Shown here: positions 21,888 through 31,028 of the stretch, piece by piece
How positions within the stretch are numbered: the first letter of the stretch is position 1
How the letters are laid out: the number at the start of each line of letters is the position of its first letter
NCBI GenBank assembly: GCA_002011615.1
Contig: MTOH01000002.1
Location: 20,711 to 84,710, forward strand
Origin: Candidatus Hydrothermus pacificus
GTDB taxonomy: Bacteria > Hydrothermota > Hydrothermia > Hydrothermales > Hydrothermaceae
Reading direction: 5' to 3'
DNA length: 64,000 nt
Position numbers and translations under genes: made by a program
Notes under the pieces: model-generated
What the model was told of the DNA's origin: nothing
The model's input: the letters and a program-made list of their open reading frames with translations, nothing else
Databases searched by the model: none

Positions 21888-22402
21888 AGGAAAGACTGAT
21901 TAATGTTCCAAACATTCTTAGCATATCAAGAGTTTTTCTTGTCCCTTTTTTCTCTTACTTTCTTATAAAAGAAAAAGTTATTTTTTCATTTTTAATTCTA
22001 TGTGCCATAGTTTTGACTGATGCCCTTGATGGATTTATAGCAAGATTTTTTTCCTGTGAAACTAAAATAGGTAAAATACTTGACCATGTTATAGACAAGT
22101 TTGTAATTGCGTGGATAATGATAACTTTATCCTATCTAAGAGATTTCCCTTTATGGGGAACATTTCTGATTATAGGAAGAGATTTTTTAAGCCTTGTAGC
22201 AGGATTGTATATTCTCAGAAAAAATAAACTGTTTGGTTCAAATATATTCGGCAAAATATCAGGATTCTTTTTTGCAGTAACAACTCTTTTATTTTTATTC
22301 AATTCAGAAGTAAGATTTATATTCTTTTATCTAACAATAACAAGCTTCCTTGTTGCTTCTATCACATATTTAAGAAAGTTTGTTTATAATTTAAAGTCTT
22401 GA
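21884..22402 (+). CDS. pgsA: CDP-alcohol phosphatidyltransferase (PgsA-like)
   Basis: Membrane enzyme probably making phosphatidylglycerol-phosphate from CDP-diacylglycerol. The 172 residues hold the CDP-alcohol transferase signature D-x2-D-G-x2-A-R-x8-G-x3-D-x3-D with D46, D49, D67 and D71, and about five membrane helices. NVPNILSISRV near the N-terminus is typical of PgsA. The start is TTG, overlapping the recN stop. Other CDP-alcohol transferases are possible, but PgsA fits length and motif best. Confidence 0.87.
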   Translation: MKERLINVPNILSISRVFLVPFFSYFLIKEKVIFSFLILCAIVLTDALDGFIARFFSCETKIGKILDHVIDKFVIAWIMITLSYLRDFPLWGTFLIIGRDFLSLVAGLYILRKNKLFGSNIFGKISGFFFAVTTLLFLFNSEVRFIFFYLTITSFLVASITYLRKFVYNLKS

Positions 22403-22498
22403 GTGCTTAACTGGATTCAAGAAATAATGATTAGCAAAAGATATGAGTTTTGTAGAAGCCAAAATGTGAGAACAAAAGCATTTTAATACTTACATTGT

Positions 22499-22527
22499 TT
22501 GACAATTTTATCTTTATACCTTATAAT
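22499..22527 (+). promoter_or_regulatory. near-consensus promoter of the surface-protein locus
   Basis: TTGACA (22499-22504), 17-bp spacer, TATAAT (22522-22527): both hexamers match the sigma-70 consensus exactly. It lies about 50 bases upstream of the ATG at 22577, so this locus has a normal leader. The strongest promoter match in the window by eye. Confidence 0.7.
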
Positions 22528-22576
22528 AATAATTTATACTTTATGTAAATTATTTTTGAGTATAGGAAAACGATAA

Positions 22577-25498
22577 ATGTGGGGAACGGTAATAATAAAT
22601 ATTTTGACTTATCTGTTTTTCCAGACTGATTGGAGTGGGGGCGGAGGGCAAAGTGCTTTTATTGATACGTCAAAGTTTTATTCATATGATTCTCTGAATT
22701 ATTCTGTAATCGGTGAATTACACTTAATGGGTGGTAGAATTCAGTTTGATACAACTGTTGCACAAATGCAGCAAACGCAGAGTACTTTCTGGGTTTCTGC
22801 TTGTGATTTTCAATTTGTGCCTGAAAATTCTGGAAATTATTTGATTACGGTATATGCCAAACTCGGAACCCAGGGAACAGGGACAAATTTTGCGGAATTC
22901 AGAGTTTTATTTAATGGAACGGAGATAGGTTCTCAGGGAATTTTCAGGATGTTTGATTTTGCAACCCAGGAAATGGCTCCTGCAGGAATTTTTAAAGTAG
23001 AAAGTTTATCTGCGGGAGTGAATAATCTTATCCAGGTTCAATATAGGACAGGTTCGTCTACCTATTACGCATATATTGAAAATATAAAGATTGTGGTAAG
23101 GAGAATAAATGATTTTGAATATGCAGAATTTGAGTCTGTATCCCAGACAAATTCGGTTTCCTATGTAACAAAAGGTGCGCTGAACTTCTCACTTTCCTCT
23201 GCTGAAACGCTTTTAATTTTAACCTGTGCAGAATTTACAGGGGTGAATTCAGGATATCCTAAATATGTGAGAACCGTGCTTGACGGAAACGATATAGGAA
23301 GTGAGAGTTCTAAATATCCGGGAAGTTCTTCAGTCTTTCATCATTATTTTTATTCCAGATATATCCCTATTCCAGGAGGACCTCATAATATTGAAATTCA
23401 ATACAGAACCGATAGAGGCACTGCTATAATGAGAAGGGCGAGAATTCTTTTAATAAAAAAGAGTGAAATTAAAAGTATTTTTTATGCTGAAGACGAATCT
23501 TTATCCTTCACCAATTCAACTTCTTTTCAGGATAAAGTAACTCTAAATTTTAGCGTTTCGGATACTACAGATTTTATTCTTATAAGTAATGCCTACTTTT
23601 CTTCCCAGTGGAGATTATGGTGGTTTTATATTTCCTATCCGGTTGAACTTCAAATTACCCTTGATGGAACTACTGTGTTGGAAAACATACTTTATGGTCC
23701 GGGATTTTCCTTCTTTAATTCAGGCATGGAATTTTATCCATTTTCACTGATTTTACCTCTTAAAATTCCGCCAGGAAGTCATGCCATTACATTGAGATAC
23801 AGGACTACCACATGGAGAGCAAGAGCATATATAAGAAATGCAAGAATTACCCTTGTTGAGGCTCAGAAATTTCAGTTTGCGAACTCAGGAGGTCTTATCT
23901 CTTCTTATTGGGATTCAGGAGAATACGGGGAAACAAGATGGGAAAGGATATACTTTAATGCATTTATACCTCCAGGAGGAAAGATTTTATTTCAGGTTGC
24001 AGGAACTAATGATACTACATCCTGGATTTTTACAGGACCGGATGGGAGTGATACTTCCTATTACAGGACATCAGGAACTCCCCTATGGAGAGGATTATAT
24101 GGAAATCGATATTTCAGATACAGGGTTATTCTGGAAAGAGATACACTTTCCGGTGAAAGTCCGGTTCTCTATAATGTGGGATTTCTTTATTTTAAAGACT
24201 ATTATGTAGATGAGCCTGAAGGAAATGATAATAACTTTGGTAGAAGAAATGAACCTTTCCTAACAATAAATAGGGCTCTTAGTTTAATGAAGGATTCTGA
24301 TGGATGCATTGTAAGAACCGGAAGGTATTTTGAAAATCTCTTTATTTCGCCTTCCTTGACAGGCACTTCGGAATTTCCCACATTTTTCACTGCGGATACC
24401 CTTTCATTTCCCGAAATACTTTCATATGATTATGAATATGCAATCTATGATTCCGGGGCAAATTGGGTGAAAATAAAAGATTTTATAATAAGAAGCGGAT
24501 ATCTCTCAGCAATTTATTTGAAAAATGCTGAACATATATATGCTTATGATAATAAAATATATGTATATGACGGGTCTTATGGTTTTGTCCTTGAGAATAT
24601 AGATTCCTCATTATTACTCAAAGGAAATCTTATGGACGCAGATACGGGCTCCAGTTTTCCCTTTGGAGGAATTCTTATAGATAATTCCTCTTATATAGAT
24701 GTGGATTCAAACATAATAAGAAATATGGAAGATATAGGAACCTCTGCAGGGTTGTGTCAAAACATAACTTATTCCAGAAATTTGATTTATAATATTTACA
24801 CCTCCGCAATTGTGATTCACACAAGCAGTACATGCAGTCTATTAAATAATACAATTGATTCCTGTGAATCCGGGTTCCAGTTTTTCAGGGTTCAAAACGA
24901 GGCTGTTGCCTTAAATAACTCCATAACAAACTGTGAATACGGCTTTTACTGGGCTGATGGTCAGGGAAACATCTTGAGTAACTATAACAATTTATGGAAT
25001 AATCAGAGTAATTATACTTCTCCTGGTGGGTACACAGTACCACAGGGACCAAATGATATATTTGCTGACCCCCTCTATAACCCTGATTATACACTTAGGC
25101 CTGGCAGTCCCAATATAGATGCAGGAGTATATGTTGGATTTCCTTATTACGGTTCTGCTCCTGATATTGGAGCATATGAATTCACGCTTATTTCAAAAAA
25201 AATAATGGACTTCTTAGAAAAAAAAGAAGATAAAAAAGATAAAAAGTTAAAGATATATATGAGAAAAGAAAATGATGGAATAAGATTTTTCTTTGGAGAT
25301 TTTTTAAAAAGCAATGATTTGAAAATAAGTATATTTAATACTACAGGAAGAAAAGTCTATGAAAGATGGGTAAGGCTTCAGAAAAGTAATGAAGGATACT
25401 TTGTTAAAATTAAAGACAATTTACCTGCAGGGTTGTATTTTATAAGATTGAAAAACAGAGATTTCTTTAAAAAATTTAAAATTTTCTTTACGAAGTAA
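22577..25498 (+). CDS. large secreted parallel beta-helix protein with C-terminal sorting domain
   Basis: 973 residues. The N-terminal hydrophobic segment (GTVIINILTYLFF) is probably a signal peptide. Residues about 30-440 are three related beta-sandwich repeats of roughly 135 residues, each with a 'YAEFES/YAEDES' opening and a 'GxHxIxIQYRT' ending. About 540-860 is a pectate-lyase-like right-handed parallel beta-helix, starting with YYVDEPEGNDNNFGRRNEPF and ending ADPLYNPDYTLRPGSPNIDAG, a DUF1565/choice-of-anchor style region. The last 75 residues form a CTD (KISIFNTTGRKVYE; PAGLYFIRLKNRD). Likely surface-exposed or released. It is first in a five-gene unit. Ligand and function unknown. Confidence 0.75.
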   Translation: MWGTVIINILTYLFFQTDWSGGGGQSAFIDTSKFYSYDSLNYSVIGELHLMGGRIQFDTTVAQMQQTQSTFWVSACDFQFVPENSGNYLITVYAKLGTQGTGTNFAEFRVLFNGTEIGSQGIFRMFDFATQEMAPAGIFKVESLSAGVNNLIQVQYRTGSSTYYAYIENIKIVVRRINDFEYAEFESVSQTNSVSYVTKGALNFSLSSAETLLILTCAEFTGVNSGYPKYVRTVLDGNDIGSESSKYPGSSSVFHHYFYSRYIPIPGGPHNIEIQYRTDRGTAIMRRARILLIKKSEIKSIFYAEDESLSFTNSTSFQDKVTLNFSVSDTTDFILISNAYFSSQWRLWWFYISYPVELQITLDGTTVLENILYGPGFSFFNSGMEFYPFSLILPLKIPPGSHAITLRYRTTTWRARAYIRNARITLVEAQKFQFANSGGLISSYWDSGEYGETRWERIYFNAFIPPGGKILFQVAGTNDTTSWIFTGPDGSDTSYYRTSGTPLWRGLYGNRYFRYRVILERDTLSGESPVLYNVGFLYFKDYYVDEPEGNDNNFGRRNEPFLTINRALSLMKDSDGCIVRTGRYFENLFISPSLTGTSEFPTFFTADTLSFPEILSYDYEYAIYDSGANWVKIKDFIIRSGYLSAIYLKNAEHIYAYDNKIYVYDGSYGFVLENIDSSLLLKGNLMDADTGSSFPFGGILIDNSSYIDVDSNIIRNMEDIGTSAGLCQNITYSRNLIYNIYTSAIVIHTSSTCSLLNNTIDSCESGFQFFRVQNEAVALNNSITNCEYGFYWADGQGNILSNYNNLWNNQSNYTSPGGYTVPQGPNDIFADPLYNPDYTLRPGSPNIDAGVYVGFPYYGSAPDIGAYEFTLISKKIMDFLEKKEDKKDKKLKIYMRKENDGIRFFFGDFLKSNDLKISIFNTTGRKVYERWVRLQKSNEGYFVKIKDNLPAGLYFIRLKNRDFFKKFKIFFTK

Positions 25499-25499
25499 A

Positions 25500-25510
25500 A
25501 GGAGGTGATG
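25500..25510 (+). promoter_or_regulatory. strong ribosome-binding site
   Basis: AAGGAGGTGAT immediately upstream of the 25512 gene is nearly fully complementary to the 3' end of 16S rRNA. This suggests high translation of the small secreted protein relative to the flanking genes. Confidence 0.7.
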
Positions 25511-25511
25511 T

Positions 25512-26123
25512 ATGAAAAAGTTGATGGCAATAATGGGGGTAGTCTCTATACTACTAACCTCAGAGGCAGTGCATGCAAATCAGATTATCGGGAATGCAGG
25601 TGACAGGCTGATAGGATTTGCTCCTCAGGATACCCTTGTTATAAATTTGAATGTTACAGTCAGGGTTCCTTCAAGACTGGGATTGTTTGTGGATTCAGAT
25701 ATGGAATTTGACCTCTCTTCACCTGTAGGTCCTTCTACCACATATCCTCCGGCTCAATTCCCGGGTTATTATTATCCAACTACAGCCAGTGGAACTAATC
25801 CCGAGGGTGTTGTTGTTGAAGTTTTTTCTAATTCTCCCACATATACCTGGCATCTGGAGATATACGGTAGCGGAGATTTTACACCAACAATAAGTCTTGA
25901 CCAACTTTATGTTGCTCCTGATGGAACAGTACCTCCTTCAGAAGGAAGCCCTGCCCCTGCACCATGGACAGCACTCTCAACTTCCTCGCAGGAATTAAAT
26001 AACGGTGGAAAAACAACGGGCTGGGAAAATTACGATAAGGATTTTATCTTTCAAGCTCAGATAGATGATGAACCTACTCCAGGAGCGACCGCAACGATTT
26101 CTTTCAGACTCTGGGCTCAATAA
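25512..26123 (+). CDS. small secreted protein, putative pilus/fibre subunit
   Basis: 203 residues with a clear signal peptide (MKKLMAIMGVVSILLTSEAVHANQ). The mature part is beta-rich, with NLNVTVRVPSRLGLFVDSD early, a Tyr/Pro-rich stretch (YPPAQFPGYYYP), LEIYGSGDFTPTISLDQLYV, and a Pro/Ser-rich linker before WTALSTS and FIFQAQIDDE. It ends in ATISFRLWAQ. I recognise no named family. The 26161 protein shows the same order of elements. Its neighbours are a PapD-like chaperone and an outer-membrane barrel, so a structural subunit is likely, but this is inference. Confidence 0.6.
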   Translation: MKKLMAIMGVVSILLTSEAVHANQIIGNAGDRLIGFAPQDTLVINLNVTVRVPSRLGLFVDSDMEFDLSSPVGPSTTYPPAQFPGYYYPTTASGTNPEGVVVEVFSNSPTYTWHLEIYGSGDFTPTISLDQLYVAPDGTVPPSEGSPAPAPWTALSTSSQELNNGGKTTGWENYDKDFIFQAQIDDEPTPGATATISFRLWAQ

Positions 26124-26160
26124 AACTAATATAATTTAAGGAATAAGATAAAGGTAGTAG

Positions 26161-26622
26161 ATGATAAATTTATTTTTATATGCTTTAGCTATTTCCATTT
26201 CAGTATTACCTCCTGTATACTTTGATTTAGGGAAATTTACATATCCCCCGCCTTTTTTCCCATTTTACTACCCTTCTCTTGACTATACCCATATGGTTAA
26301 ACTTGAGTATGAGATAGAGCCTTCAGAAACACTTAAATCCCTTGAAGTTTACATAAGAGGGTATGGTGAACTACCAGAAGGTATGAATTTTTCAAATTTT
26401 TTATTTTCTACTGAAGATTTGCCATTACCTCAGGGTAATGACATATCAGGATGGATACCTCTCTCGTCTTCATGGAAAAAAATAGGCGAATTTCCCTGTA
26501 AAATGAAAAAGGGAGAGGCTATTTTCCCTTTGATTTTCATTTTCAGAGTGAATAGAGAAGATAAATTTTATAATATTGAGAAATTTGATCTGAAATTCCA
26601 GTTCAGGGTAAATGCTAAATAG
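26161..26622 (+). CDS. small secreted protein, second putative subunit related to the upstream gene
   Basis: 153 residues, with an N-terminal signal-like segment (INLFLYALAISISVL). The rest aligns by eye with the 25512 product: PPPFFPFYYP, LEVYIRGYGELPEGMNFSNFLF, GWIPLSSSWKKIG and FIFRVNRED. It is beta-rich, with no catalytic motif. It overlaps the chaperone-like gene by 11 bases. Possibly a minor or tip subunit of the same structure. Homology between the two is an eye-level call and not statistically tested. Confidence 0.5.
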   Translation: MINLFLYALAISISVLPPVYFDLGKFTYPPPFFPFYYPSLDYTHMVKLEYEIEPSETLKSLEVYIRGYGELPEGMNFSNFLFSTEDLPLPQGNDISGWIPLSSSWKKIGEFPCKMKKGEAIFPLIFIFRVNREDKFYNIEKFDLKFQFRVNAK

Positions 26623-27352
26623 TATCCTTTTCTTTTTATTAATCACTCAATCTCCACGAATGTTTGTGGAGCCTGCAAAAGTGGAAAAGTTTTATACAAA
26701 GGGGAAAACATACACAGAGGTTTTTACAGTGGAAATAAGGGATTTTCCCGCACATGTGGAAATTTATGTTGAAGATTTTTTTATTAAAGAAAACGGTGAC
26801 TTTGAATTTAAAAAACAGGGTACTTACAATTTTTCACTTGCACCTTTTATTAGTGTAAATCCAAGAAGCTTTGATATGGAACCGGGTGATAAAAGAGAGG
26901 TAAGAGTTTCTTTTACATTGCCGGATACCATGAAAAGTTATGAGAAGTGGTGTATGCTTATTTTCAAGAGCTACCCAAAAAGAGAAAAAGTCCCTCTTAT
27001 TCAGATTGTAGGAGAAATAGGAACCCCAATTTATGCCATCTTGCCTGAAGGGAATGTTAAAGATGCGAACCTGATTTATATAGGAAAAGAAAATAAAAAG
27101 GTTTATTTTGTTCTGGAAAATTTTTCACCCATTCACTTAAGAACAAGTGGAAAAATCTATTTAATAGATAAATCTGACAGAAAGATATTTGAGAAACAAT
27201 TTTCAAATCTTGTAATTATGCCCTTTAAAAAAAGAAAATATTTTTTTGATATTCCAGAAAACATAAATAAAGGCAAATATAGTTTTTTCTGTGAGGTTGA
27301 TTACGGTGGAGCAGAGATTTTAAAGGGTGAAAAGGAGGTGATATTGCCCTGA
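26612..27352 (+). CDS. PapD-like periplasmic chaperone
   Basis: 246 residues: a short signal-like N-terminus (LNSILFFLLITQSPRMF) then two immunoglobulin-like beta domains. The end of the first domain reads ISVNPRSFDMEPGDKREVRVSF, close to the 'P..F.L.PGe.q.vRv' signature of fimbrial chaperones, followed by WCMLIFKSYPK. The second domain starts near IVGEIGTPIYAILPEG. The PapD active-site Arg/Lys pair cannot be assigned by eye. Downstream is a barrel protein, upstream two small secreted proteins, the expected neighbours of a chaperone-usher system. Confidence 0.6.
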   Translation: MLNSILFFLLITQSPRMFVEPAKVEKFYTKGKTYTEVFTVEIRDFPAHVEIYVEDFFIKENGDFEFKKQGTYNFSLAPFISVNPRSFDMEPGDKREVRVSFTLPDTMKSYEKWCMLIFKSYPKREKVPLIQIVGEIGTPIYAILPEGNVKDANLIYIGKENKKVYFVLENFSPIHLRTSGKIYLIDKSDRKIFEKQFSNLVIMPFKKRKYFFDIPENINKGKYSFFCEVDYGGAEILKGEKEVILP

Positions 27353-29172
27353 AAATATTTATTCCACTGATTTTCTTAAAATATTTTTCCTTCTCCATGT
27401 ATTCTTATAATCAGTTTTTACCCTCTTCGTATTCAAACAGCATCTATTTCTCCACATATTATAAAAAAGATGGATTAAATTTTTCATCAAGACTTGCAAA
27501 AACAAACAATATGTATTACCTTGATAATTTACTTATTACCCTGCCTGTCAAAGATAAAAGCCTTTCTGTTTTTGATATTAGTTTCTATCCTACCTTACCT
27601 TTCTCGAGTTCCTTTTATGCAAGGGGAATTGAATTTGTTGATAAAAAATATAAAATTATTATAGGAAAAGAAAGGGACACAGGTTCCTTACCACCGTCTT
27701 TTAAAGAAAGTGAATATATATCTTCTGGGGAGTGGACTTTTTATAACAGGTTTCCAGTGGAATTTAAAACCTCATTTTTCGCAAAAAAGAACACAGGAAA
27801 ATCACCTGTTTTCCTGTTATCGAATAACTTTGCCTATTCAAGAGATAAAATTAACTTTGAAAAAAGACTGGGATTTTCAATTTTAAATTCTTCCATTGGT
27901 ATTGCAGATGAGATGAGATTATCTTTTTTAAAAGAGGAAAGAGGTTTTAACTTTATATTTCGTGGTAAAACAGAAAATTATTCTCTTTTCTATGAAAGTT
28001 CAAAGCATCATTACATAGGATTATCCGGGGCCGGGTTTTCAAAAATTTCTCCTTATATTAAAGGAATTTCAAGAGCTTATTACTATAATTCGTCCCTTTC
28101 ATGGATGTTTTCCAATGATTATGAGATAAATTTTATATACCCATCTTTCCCTGGAATAAGCATTTCAGGGGGTATTGAGGGAAGCAGGAAATTTGTTTTC
28201 AAAAGAGGAGTTGAATTGTTTTATAATCAGAGATTTGGTTATTTAAGGGTTTCCCACTCCAAGGGACTGAGAGAGATAAATGACATAAGAGTGGAATTCA
28301 GAAAATATCCACTTTCTCTAAGTGCTTACTCTGTTTTTTCAAAAACGAGGGTTTATAAAATTTCTTTTGGTGTTTTGCCCAGAAAATTTATTTCCCTTGA
28401 AGGTTATCTGGGTAGAGAATCAAGAGAGACCAATAGGAATTTCTACGGTTTTAACATAAGGTTTCTAAAACCAGGTATAAACTTTTTGGCTTCTTATTAT
28501 ACAACAAAATTAGGTGAGAGGTTTTACTCCACTCTTTCTTTTTCTCTCTCAGGTACAGTAACCATTCAAAAAATGGGGTTGAGTAAATGTTATGGGTTCA
28601 TATTTATGGATGAAAATGGTAACTTTGAATACGACGCAGGAGAAAAACCTGTTGAAGGAATAAAATTAATACTGGATGGCACAGAAGAAGTTTATACCGA
28701 TAAAAGAGGGAGATTTAATATTTCCTTCCTGCCCGCTGGAAAACATAAACTGGAAATAAAATATGGGGCATTACCCGCTCAGTACGGGAGTGGTTTTGGT
28801 GAAACCTTTGAATTTAATACAGGATTTGTAGATGTTAAAAAATTCTCAATACCTCTTGTTCCTCTTGGCGAGGTTAAGGGAATTGTGTTTATTGATAAAA
28901 ACAGAAATGGGCAAAAAGATGAAGATGAGGAGAGTGTAAAGAATGCCGTTGTTTTAATAAATGGTAGTTCCACAATTACTGACGAAGAAGGGGTATTTTA
29001 TATAACTGCATTACCTCCTGGTATTTATAATGTAGAAATAGGTTCTGTTCCTGTAAAGGGAATAAGGATACCTCCTGTTTTTTCTATTATTGTAAATCCC
29101 GGTGAAAAGATTTATGGGATTAATTTACCTGTCTACTTGCCCGAAAAAAAGGTGAGATATAAGAAATTTTAA
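27349..29172 (+). CDS. outer-membrane beta-barrel with two Cna-B/SdrD-like domains (usher-like)
   Basis: 607 residues if translation starts at CTG 27349, which overlaps the chaperone stop (CTGA), follows an AAGGAGGTG site and adds a signal peptide (KIFIPLIFLKYFSFS). From the first ATG (27397) the 591-residue product would lack a signal. Residues about 20-400 are many alternating aromatic/polar strands, as in an outer-membrane barrel. Two beta-sandwich repeats follow (CYGFIFMDENGNFEYDAGE and KGIVFIDKNRNGQKDEDEE), each ending in a 'LPxGxxxxEI' strand. Such domains occur in some fimbrial ushers, but the barrel is shorter than FimD and no plug domain is evident, so usher function is a hypothesis. 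Confidence 0.6.
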   Translation: MKIFIPLIFLKYFSFSMYSYNQFLPSSYSNSIYFSTYYKKDGLNFSSRLAKTNNMYYLDNLLITLPVKDKSLSVFDISFYPTLPFSSSFYARGIEFVDKKYKIIIGKERDTGSLPPSFKESEYISSGEWTFYNRFPVEFKTSFFAKKNTGKSPVFLLSNNFAYSRDKINFEKRLGFSILNSSIGIADEMRLSFLKEERGFNFIFRGKTENYSLFYESSKHHYIGLSGAGFSKISPYIKGISRAYYYNSSLSWMFSNDYEINFIYPSFPGISISGGIEGSRKFVFKRGVELFYNQRFGYLRVSHSKGLREINDIRVEFRKYPLSLSAYSVFSKTRVYKISFGVLPRKFISLEGYLGRESRETNRNFYGFNIRFLKPGINFLASYYTTKLGERFYSTLSFSLSGTVTIQKMGLSKCYGFIFMDENGNFEYDAGEKPVEGIKLILDGTEEVYTDKRGRFNISFLPAGKHKLEIKYGALPAQYGSGFGETFEFNTGFVDVKKFSIPLVPLGEVKGIVFIDKNRNGQKDEDEESVKNAVVLINGSSTITDEEGVFYITALPPGIYNVEIGSVPVKGIRIPPVFSIIVNPGEKIYGINLPVYLPEKKVRYKKF

Positions 29173-29177
29173 TCTGT

Positions 29178-31028
29178 CTATAATTTTTCAGGAATTAAAA
29201 TTTCTACAGTTGTTCCAAATCCCGGTTTTGAAGAAATTTCTATTTTACCCTGAATGTCCTCAATGAGTTTTTTTACTATAAATAGCCCGAGCCCTGTCCC
29301 CTTTTCTTTTCTGGTGTAAAAAGGAGAAAATATTTTTTCTATTTCATCTTCGGGTATGCCCGTTCCTCTGTCAGAAATATTTATTTTAATTTTGTCATTT
29401 ATTTTTTCTGTGCTTATTTCAATTATTCCACCCTCTTCCTGCGCCTCAATTGAATTTTTAACTATATTATCCAGAATCTTTTTTAACTTTTTATAGTCGG
29501 ATATAACTTTTAACTCCTTTCCTTCTACTTTAAAAATAATTCCATGTTTTTTAAGTAGTTCACTCTTCTCTTTTTCTATTTCCTTAAAAATTTCAGTAAG
29601 GTTGAATTCTTTTTTTTCTATTCCGAAAGGCCTTAAATAAAGAAGGAATTCTTCTACCTTTTCTTTTAAATTTAAATAGGCGCCTTCTATTTTTTTTATC
29701 ACCTTACTGTCTGCGCTTTTTTCCAGTTCTTTTATTGAAAGTGCCATTAAATTAAGAGGATTTTTTATTTCATGAGCAAGACCCGCAAGAAATTCTGTGA
29801 ATCCAGAGAGTTTTTCCTCTCGGTAAGTTTCTTTAATTTCAGTAATATCCGCTAACAAACCAAGGATGAATTTATTTCTACCGTGAATGATAGGGATTGT
29901 TCTCCCTGCAAAAATTCTTTTTCCTATTTTCTCTTCAAATTTTATCTCTCTTTTCTGTTCCATAACTTTTTTAATTTTAAATATATCCAGCTCATCTTTT
30001 TCAAGAATATTTTTGTCCTTTAAGTTACTATCCCCGAGAAAAGATTGGATAGCATGATTTGCAAAGACTATTTTACCATCCTCCCTCACGATAATTAAAA
30101 AGAGGTTGTTTTCTTTTTCAAAAATTTCAATTATTTCATTTTTTTCTCTTGCTTCTGTGTATTTTTTCAAATTATTGAAATAAGCAAAGTACACAATCAA
30201 ATAGAAAAATATTAATACCAGGGTTATAATAAAAAAAACATTAAAACTTTTTACAAATGCCATATATTTATCCATTGAAAACCCCACCCTTAAAATACCT
30301 TCTTTTTCGCCAAAAATTTCAACACTTTTTAAAAATTCAAATACCCTCTTGTTTTTATTCAATATTTCTCTTGTAAGAATACTGTCTGAGTTGAAAGCGT
30401 TTTTTAAAAAGGTATCCTCGTCTATATCCAGCACCCTCTCAGGCAACTTGCTGGAAAATACAACCCCTTCTTTTGATTGAAACAAAAAGAATTCTATTTC
30501 GGGGTCCTTTGAAATTTCATTTAAAAGACTTTTAATACCATACTCTCTTTTTAAAAGTTTTATAGAAGATATATCCTTCAAAATTAACAACTTTCTGTTC
30601 CCTTTTTCTTTATAAAAAAACATTGTATCCCCGTTTATCTCCGTGTTCATACCCTTTATTATCTCTCTCTCATCTATTTTTTCATCCTTCATATGCAGGG
30701 TTGAATTAATAACAATGTTGTTTTTGTCCATTACTGTTATTCCGAATAGGTCGAATTGAACACTGTATTCAAGAAGTTTAGCTTTGTTTACCCTTTCTTC
30801 AAGAAGCACCTCTGACAATAAATTCAGTTCTTTTGAAACATTTCTATCTATTTCAACAGAGAATTTAATAGAATTTATAATTGACGGAGAAATTGTTTCA
30901 ATAAAAGTTCTACCTTTAATTTTTAAAGATTTATCGGATGATTTTAGAGAAGAAAAATAAAGGTAGGGAACAGAAATCACAAAAAACAGGATTGATATGG
31001 TCCATATTATAAATATTATTTTTCTCAT
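29178..31028 (-). CDS. membrane sensor histidine kinase
   Basis: 616 residues: membrane helix (about 5-27), an extracytoplasmic sensor region of about 230 residues, a second helix (about 258-280), a PAS domain (about 300-400), HisKA with LAHEIKNPLNLMALSI, and HATPase_c (DNIVKNSIEAQEEGG; DRGTGIPEDEI; GTGLGLFIVKKL). It belongs to the NtrB/AtoS-like HisKA subclass by its HEIKNPL box. It is last in the unit with the PHP protein (four-base overlap). No response regulator is adjacent. It ends five bases from the convergent barrel gene. Confidence 0.93.
   Translation of the reverse strand: MRKIIFIIWTISILFFVISVPYLYFSSLKSSDKSLKIKGRTFIETISPSIINSIKFSVEIDRNVSKELNLLSEVLLEERVNKAKLLEYSVQFDLFGITVMDKNNIVINSTLHMKDEKIDEREIIKGMNTEINGDTMFFYKEKGNRKLLILKDISSIKLLKREYGIKSLLNEISKDPEIEFFLFQSKEGVVFSSKLPERVLDIDEDTFLKNAFNSDSILTREILNKNKRVFEFLKSVEIFGEKEGILRVGFSMDKYMAFVKSFNVFFIITLVLIFFYLIVYFAYFNNLKKYTEAREKNEIIEIFEKENNLFLIIVREDGKIVFANHAIQSFLGDSNLKDKNILEKDELDIFKIKKVMEQKREIKFEEKIGKRIFAGRTIPIIHGRNKFILGLLADITEIKETYREEKLSGFTEFLAGLAHEIKNPLNLMALSIKELEKSADSKVIKKIEGAYLNLKEKVEEFLLYLRPFGIEKKEFNLTEIFKEIEKEKSELLKKHGIIFKVEGKELKVISDYKKLKKILDNIVKNSIEAQEEGGIIEISTEKINDKIKINISDRGTGIPEDEIEKIFSPFYTRKEKGTGLGLFIVKKLIEDIQGKIEISSKPGFGTTVEILIPEKL

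Follow-up and report, generated by a model that had tools for sequence, protein, structure and literature searches.

Chaperone-usher systems, among them the Fim, Pap and Caf types, the archaic Csu and the alternative Ecp, build surface fibres in which the N-terminal extension of a subunit is the strand given to its neighbour. In their textbook form, the N-terminal domain of the usher recruits the subunits and the plug gates the pore. A proline is invariant across the chaperone superfamily, and CsuC, for which a structure has been solved, completes the beta-sandwich of its partner (PMC4654587). The same is predicted for WxLIP, a protein of the Gram-positive WxL clusters (DUF916-DUF3324) (PMC10599100). 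Here we describe a four-gene cassette from an uncultured WOR-3 bacterium (positions 25512-29172, plus strand, of the analyzed stretch of 64,000 nucleotides, hereafter the window) that encodes two small secreted proteins, a chaperone and an outer-membrane barrel. Read from its genes alone, we propose with a probability of roughly 0.6 that it is a chaperone-assembled surface fibre system, and probably a variant in which chaperone-built fibres are exported through a reduced barrel and not through a recognisable usher. A literature search, which covered subscription journals thinly, returned no account of such a system.

Gene organization of the cassette

The first gene (25512..26123, +) encodes a 203-aa protein with a signal peptide at approximately residues 1-22 and relatives at nearly all loci; it is the candidate main fibre subunit, of a kind that we call long-N. 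The second (26161..26622, +; 153 aa) encodes a short-N subunit, the candidate tip subunit, a homologous gene of which adjoins the chaperone gene in several families. They are followed by a two-domain periplasmic chaperone of the PapD/WxLIP type (26612..27352, +; 246 aa) and by an outer-membrane barrel that carries two beta-sandwich domains at its C-terminus (27349..29172, +; 607 aa), the candidate exit pore and assembly platform. With a 37-nt gap and then overlaps of 11 and 4 nt, the genes are packed as the initial annotation had described them, overlapping or less than 40 bases apart. The mechanical open reading frame of the barrel opens at ATG 27397, and an upstream CTG at 27349 stands behind AAGGAGGTGAT. 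This CTG is most likely the translation start, since it comes with a signal peptide and a good ribosome-binding site, and since the barrel gene of the nearest relative (L016) overlaps the chaperone gene by the identical 4 nt.

The cassette had also been placed behind a consensus promoter. A perfect site does exist (TTGACA-17-TATAAT, 12/12 consensus positions with a 17-nt spacer; 22499..22527, +), the sole 12/12 sigma-70 promoter-like site within 22300-29400, but it precedes the upstream gene at 22577..25498 (+) and not position 25512. The product of this upstream gene is a secreted beta-helix protein of 973 aa that bears a T9SS type A sorting tail. Only 13 nt separate the gene from position 25512, and the cassette is therefore probably the tail of a five-gene unit headed by it. 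We considered an operon start with its own promoter at 25512 and rejected it, given the position of the strong promoter before 22577. The beta-helix gene is not conserved together with the cassette. The host genome carries an SprA homologue (377.6 bits, for a cut-off of 200) and more than 60 T9SS tails, and a T9SS is therefore probably present in this WOR-3 bacterium.

Conservation among WOR-3 genomes

We surveyed 147 WOR-3 genomes, first with the window chaperone as query and next with a profile built from 13 relatives (A1), and found single-length chaperones in about 30 of them. In almost all of these the order small secreted subunit(s), chaperone, barrel is kept, except at contig ends and for a single orphan copy of the chaperone (L025). 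This recurrence shows that the cassette is no product of chance, and it bears out the pilus-type gene order proposed by the initial annotation. A profile built on the barrel part alone, with the C-terminal domains removed (A9), detected the barrel in 23 of the 147 genomes, each time as a single copy. The linkage to the chaperone is strict: by coordinates, all 23 barrel genes lie on the same strand and at most 45 nt downstream of a chaperone gene, in several families and with stop and start codons that often overlap, and at the sensitivity of this profile no barrel without chaperone was found among the 147 genomes. Subunit genes are present beside the pair wherever the contig extends far enough. 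SdrD_B and Ig domains are individually common, as would be expected if unconnected surface proteins had become neighbours by accident, but such tight pairing across several families makes this explanation very hard to credit. No relatives were found in the viral contigs that were scanned.

In one family (L017, L018, L059, L060 and L066), genes for NtrC-type response regulators and for a conserved small protein of 123-127 aa flank the cassette, joined in some members by a histidine kinase, which suggests a dedicated control of the fibre cassette there. Remote WOR-3 versions lie at L076:6190-7392 and L077:2879-7626. The subunits of the former have YWKLY or YWKLY-like C-terminal tails, and one of them has two W-x-L motifs (SWEL and YWKL); the outer-membrane protein of the latter comprises 940 aa, with Ig-like domains at the N-terminus.

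The chaperone

The AlphaFold2 model of the chaperone (two-sequence alignment, pLDDT 73.8) consists of two Ig domains. Foldseek matched it to WxLIP (2e-10), Caf1M (1.8e-9), FimC (2.6e-9), CfaA (1.2e-8) and EcpB (3e-8), with TM-scores of only 0.4-0.6 that leave the domain orientation uncertain. The superfamily-invariant proline is kept in 30 of 30 distinct chaperone sequences. This two-Ig fold, the Foldseek values of 1e-9 to 1e-10 for WxLIP and the classical pilus chaperones, and the proline together support the PapD-like two-domain chaperone of the initial annotation. When sequence profiles were compared with PDB entries, WxLIP came out best (9i25, E 4.5e-4), CsuC reaching 0.58. Among 13 chaperone relatives, the Pfam family PapD_N matched four (best E 1.4e-5), WxLIP_PGBD three (best E 2.3e-6) and DUF916 (PF06030) three, the window chaperone being unmatched by DUF916. 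Sequence profiles thus place the chaperone between Gram-positive WxLIP and the pilus chaperones.

The G1 strand (26999..27031, +; residues 130-140, or 134-143 in the model) alternates in hydrophobicity across 30 unique sequences, positions 130, 132, 136, 138 and 140 being hydrophobic in 90-100% and positions 131, 135, 137 and 139 mostly polar or small. In the sequence alignment, the position corresponding to Arg8 of PapD is basic in 93%, and two further anchors for the subunit carboxylate are not conserved: Gly or Val stands at the position of the classical Lys112, and Ser or Gly at the position of the archaic Arg89. The window chaperone ends in ...EILKGEKEVILP and has no C-terminal transmembrane helix. 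A tandem chaperone-like protein made of two PapD/WxLIP units, with WxLIP_PGBD above its curated cut-off, is encoded at L027:38-1576, directly followed by a secretin (L027:1573-2886; PF00263, 1.4e-43); long tandem proteins resembling this one occur in several further WOR-3 genomes.

Two kinds of subunits

The small secreted proteins had been described as alike, and they are indeed homologous: in L015, a WOR-3 MAG and the closest named relative, the two counterparts share 42% identity, and a single profile covers both window proteins. Searches of Pfam, NCBIfam and PDB profiles assigned the window-type subunits to no family, whether known pilin, SCPU or WxL, and hhalign against EcpA gave nothing useful. 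A donor strand at the subunit N-termini, for which the initial annotation advised looking, has its counterpart in the 27 long-N subunits examined. Counted from an invariant proline, positions -11, -7, -5, -3 and -1 are hydrophobic (0.85-1.0; n=27) with mostly polar residues between, and the strand and proline are followed by a second strand and an FDL motif. The candidate donor strand of the first window subunit is TLVINLNVTVRV (residues 41-52; 25632..25667, +), with the invariant proline next to it. Short-N subunits, including the second window protein, have no first strand and begin directly at the second. A subunit of this kind could therefore only be the last one, and we infer that it forms the tip of the fibre. 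In some families, a small protein related to the subunits, SUBB, is found instead (profile match of 94.9%), and no short-N gene was seen there. The first window subunit contains one W-x-L motif (TWHLEI) and the second none, neither of them showing a dual motif, and W-x-[LV] is found in 13/13 SUBB proteins.

These motifs bear on the main rival of the fibre reading, a non-polymerising surface complex of the WxL/WxLIP kind, in which the two-domain protein would stay on its Ig-like partners and the barrel would anchor or export the complex. Besides the motifs in the first subunit and SUBB, the rank of WxLIP as best match of the chaperone by both sequence and fold and the matches of WxLIP_PGBD speak for it, and in WxL clusters, too, a single WxLIP goes with both small and large partners (PMC10599100). 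Yet the window chaperone has no C-terminal transmembrane helix, Pfam gives no WxL match, and the extra alternating strand of the long-N subunits would be needless in a partner that does not polymerise. The WOR-3 loci moreover include a barrel wherever the contig is long enough to show one. We consider this complex unlikely.

The outer-membrane barrel

The barrel region (27397..28572, +; residues 17-408) has about 20-24 alternating strands by count and is followed by two SdrD_B/prealbumin-type domains (28579..29148, +; residues ~411-503 and ~507-600), which Pfam and the model confirm as the SdrD-like domains seen initially. Between 19 and 24 alternating strands were counted in the barrel region of 10 of 12 members, with a calibration in which 22 of the 24 real strands of the FimD barrel were found. 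The alternation exceeds shuffled controls in 10/12 members, with the clearest signal in L015, L022 and L028; it is like that of FimD's barrel and unlike that of cytosolic controls taken from the window. For the N-terminal ~390 residues we found no Pfam or PDB relative, and comparisons of the barrel sequence with FimD and EcpC (hhalign) and with PDB chains revealed no relation. The AlphaFold2 model (two sequences) reaches a pLDDT of 42.5 overall and is unreliable in most of the barrel (~20-36). The two C-terminal domains, which are of SdrD_B type, are modelled better (~60-87). Nearly all members have a conserved C-terminal tail that is rich in basic residues, with Phe in the last or penultimate position (29146-29169 in the window). 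This tail resembles an outer-membrane sorting signal, yet follows the C-terminal domains and not the last barrel strand.

What defines an usher was looked for in several ways. The usher family PF00577 is found in none of the 147 WOR-3 genomes, in a search that detected the E. coli usher as positive control. The N-terminal chaperone-binding domain is absent, with no Pfam match to it in the barrel protein, and there is no room for it, since the alternating strands set in within ~20-30 residues of the signal peptide and continue without any long strand-free gap. In a scan made on sequence, the model being unreliable here, no such gap exceeds 45 residues in the 12 barrel members, and a plug is not apparent. 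The usher-like reading of the initial annotation thus holds for the chaperone, the donor strand and the gene order, and not for the barrel, where usher N-terminal domain, matches to PF00577, FimD or EcpC, and evidence of a plug are missing.

Could the cassette nevertheless be a true chaperone-usher system that has diverged extremely, its barrel being derived from an usher through loss of the N-terminal domain and the plug? The gene order is the same, two beta-sandwich domains come after the barrel as they do in FimD, and the 50 best fold matches include no outer-membrane barrels other than FimD and PapC, a weak indication from an unreliable barrel model. Domains of the SdrD_B/CarboxypepD type are, however, common in unrelated proteins, and the C-terminal domains are therefore weak evidence of kinship with the usher; together with 0/147 genomes for PF00577 and no barrel match to FimD or EcpC by hhalign, this makes such a descent quite improbable.

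Related loci in other lineages

Outside WOR-3, we sampled 30 genomes that matched the chaperone profile and inspected 20 loci (L083-L102). Two of the 30 genomes have PF00577 ushers, both directly beside the chaperone match, which validates the chaperone profile; the other 28 have none. At 15 of the 20 loci, an outer-membrane protein of 813-1070 aa with two C-terminal SdrD_B/CarboxypepD-type domains occupies the position of the usher, in one case after one intervening gene. Several of these proteins have Ig-like (NEW3/FixG_C) or Cu_amine_oxidN1-type domains at the N-terminus, and PF00577 is missing from all that were scanned. By hhalign, their barrel parts show no detectable similarity to the WOR-3 barrel. 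The initial annotation had held that without the usher parts the proteins would be just a set of surface proteins. The N-terminal domain is missing and no plug was seen, yet this conclusion does not follow, because of the 23/23 linkage, the accompanying subunit genes and the larger, same-tailed protein found at the same position elsewhere.

A tentative extension, to which we give somewhat less than even odds, is that all these loci belong to a separate and widespread class of fibre systems with SdrD_B-tailed barrels in place of the usher, of which the WOR-3 barrels are the smallest. With a chaperone between PapD and WxLIP, pilus assembly in diderms and WxL complexes in monoderms might then share one strand-donating ancestor.

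A model for fibre assembly

In the fibre system that we favour, Sec would carry the subunits into the periplasm, each of them predicted to be an Ig-like fold without its last strand, and the G1 strand of the chaperone would cap the resulting groove. The barrel protein may take up the chaperone-subunit complex at the outer membrane, probably via its two C-terminal domains. There, the next long-N subunit would displace the chaperone strand with its own N-terminal donor strand, and the growing chain would be threaded through the barrel to the outside. The short-N subunit, which could accept a donor strand and has none to give, would sit at the tip. A barrel that does the usher's job without the N-terminal domain, and perhaps without a plug, would reveal which parts of the usher are dispensable, and chaperone-built fibres would extend to a candidate phylum that is invisible to searches based on PF00577.

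Comparison with known systems

The outer-membrane proteins of the loci outside WOR-3 resemble the WOR-3 barrel in their position after the chaperone, in their two C-terminal domains and in having no PF00577 where scanned; they differ in their greater length, in the N-terminal domains of several of them and in barrel sequences that are not detectably similar. Compared to chaperone-usher systems, the cassette lacks a PF00577 usher and the usher N-terminal domain, no plug was found, the barrel protein is much smaller than known pilus ushers, the Lys112 and Arg89 anchors are missing, the subunits have no match among the pilin families, and the chaperone is also near WxLIP. By the tests that define the usher, the cassette is no member of this pathway. 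Still, it would work like a chaperone-usher system: it shares with the latter the gene order, the two-Ig chaperone with its invariant proline and alternating G1 strand, a donor-like N-terminal strand, seen as a pattern in 27 subunits, and two beta-sandwich domains behind an outer-membrane barrel. From the WxL/WxLIP clusters it is set apart by the outer-membrane barrel, the N-terminal donor-like strand, a chaperone without C-terminal membrane helix and window subunits without dual WxL motif. At the same time, WxLIP is the closest solved structure to its chaperone in sequence and fold, in both cases a donated strand is predicted to complete the partner, and a W-x-L motif is present in some cassette subunits. 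The cassette would thus tie pilus chaperones in a concrete way to the WxL system of Gram-positive bacteria.
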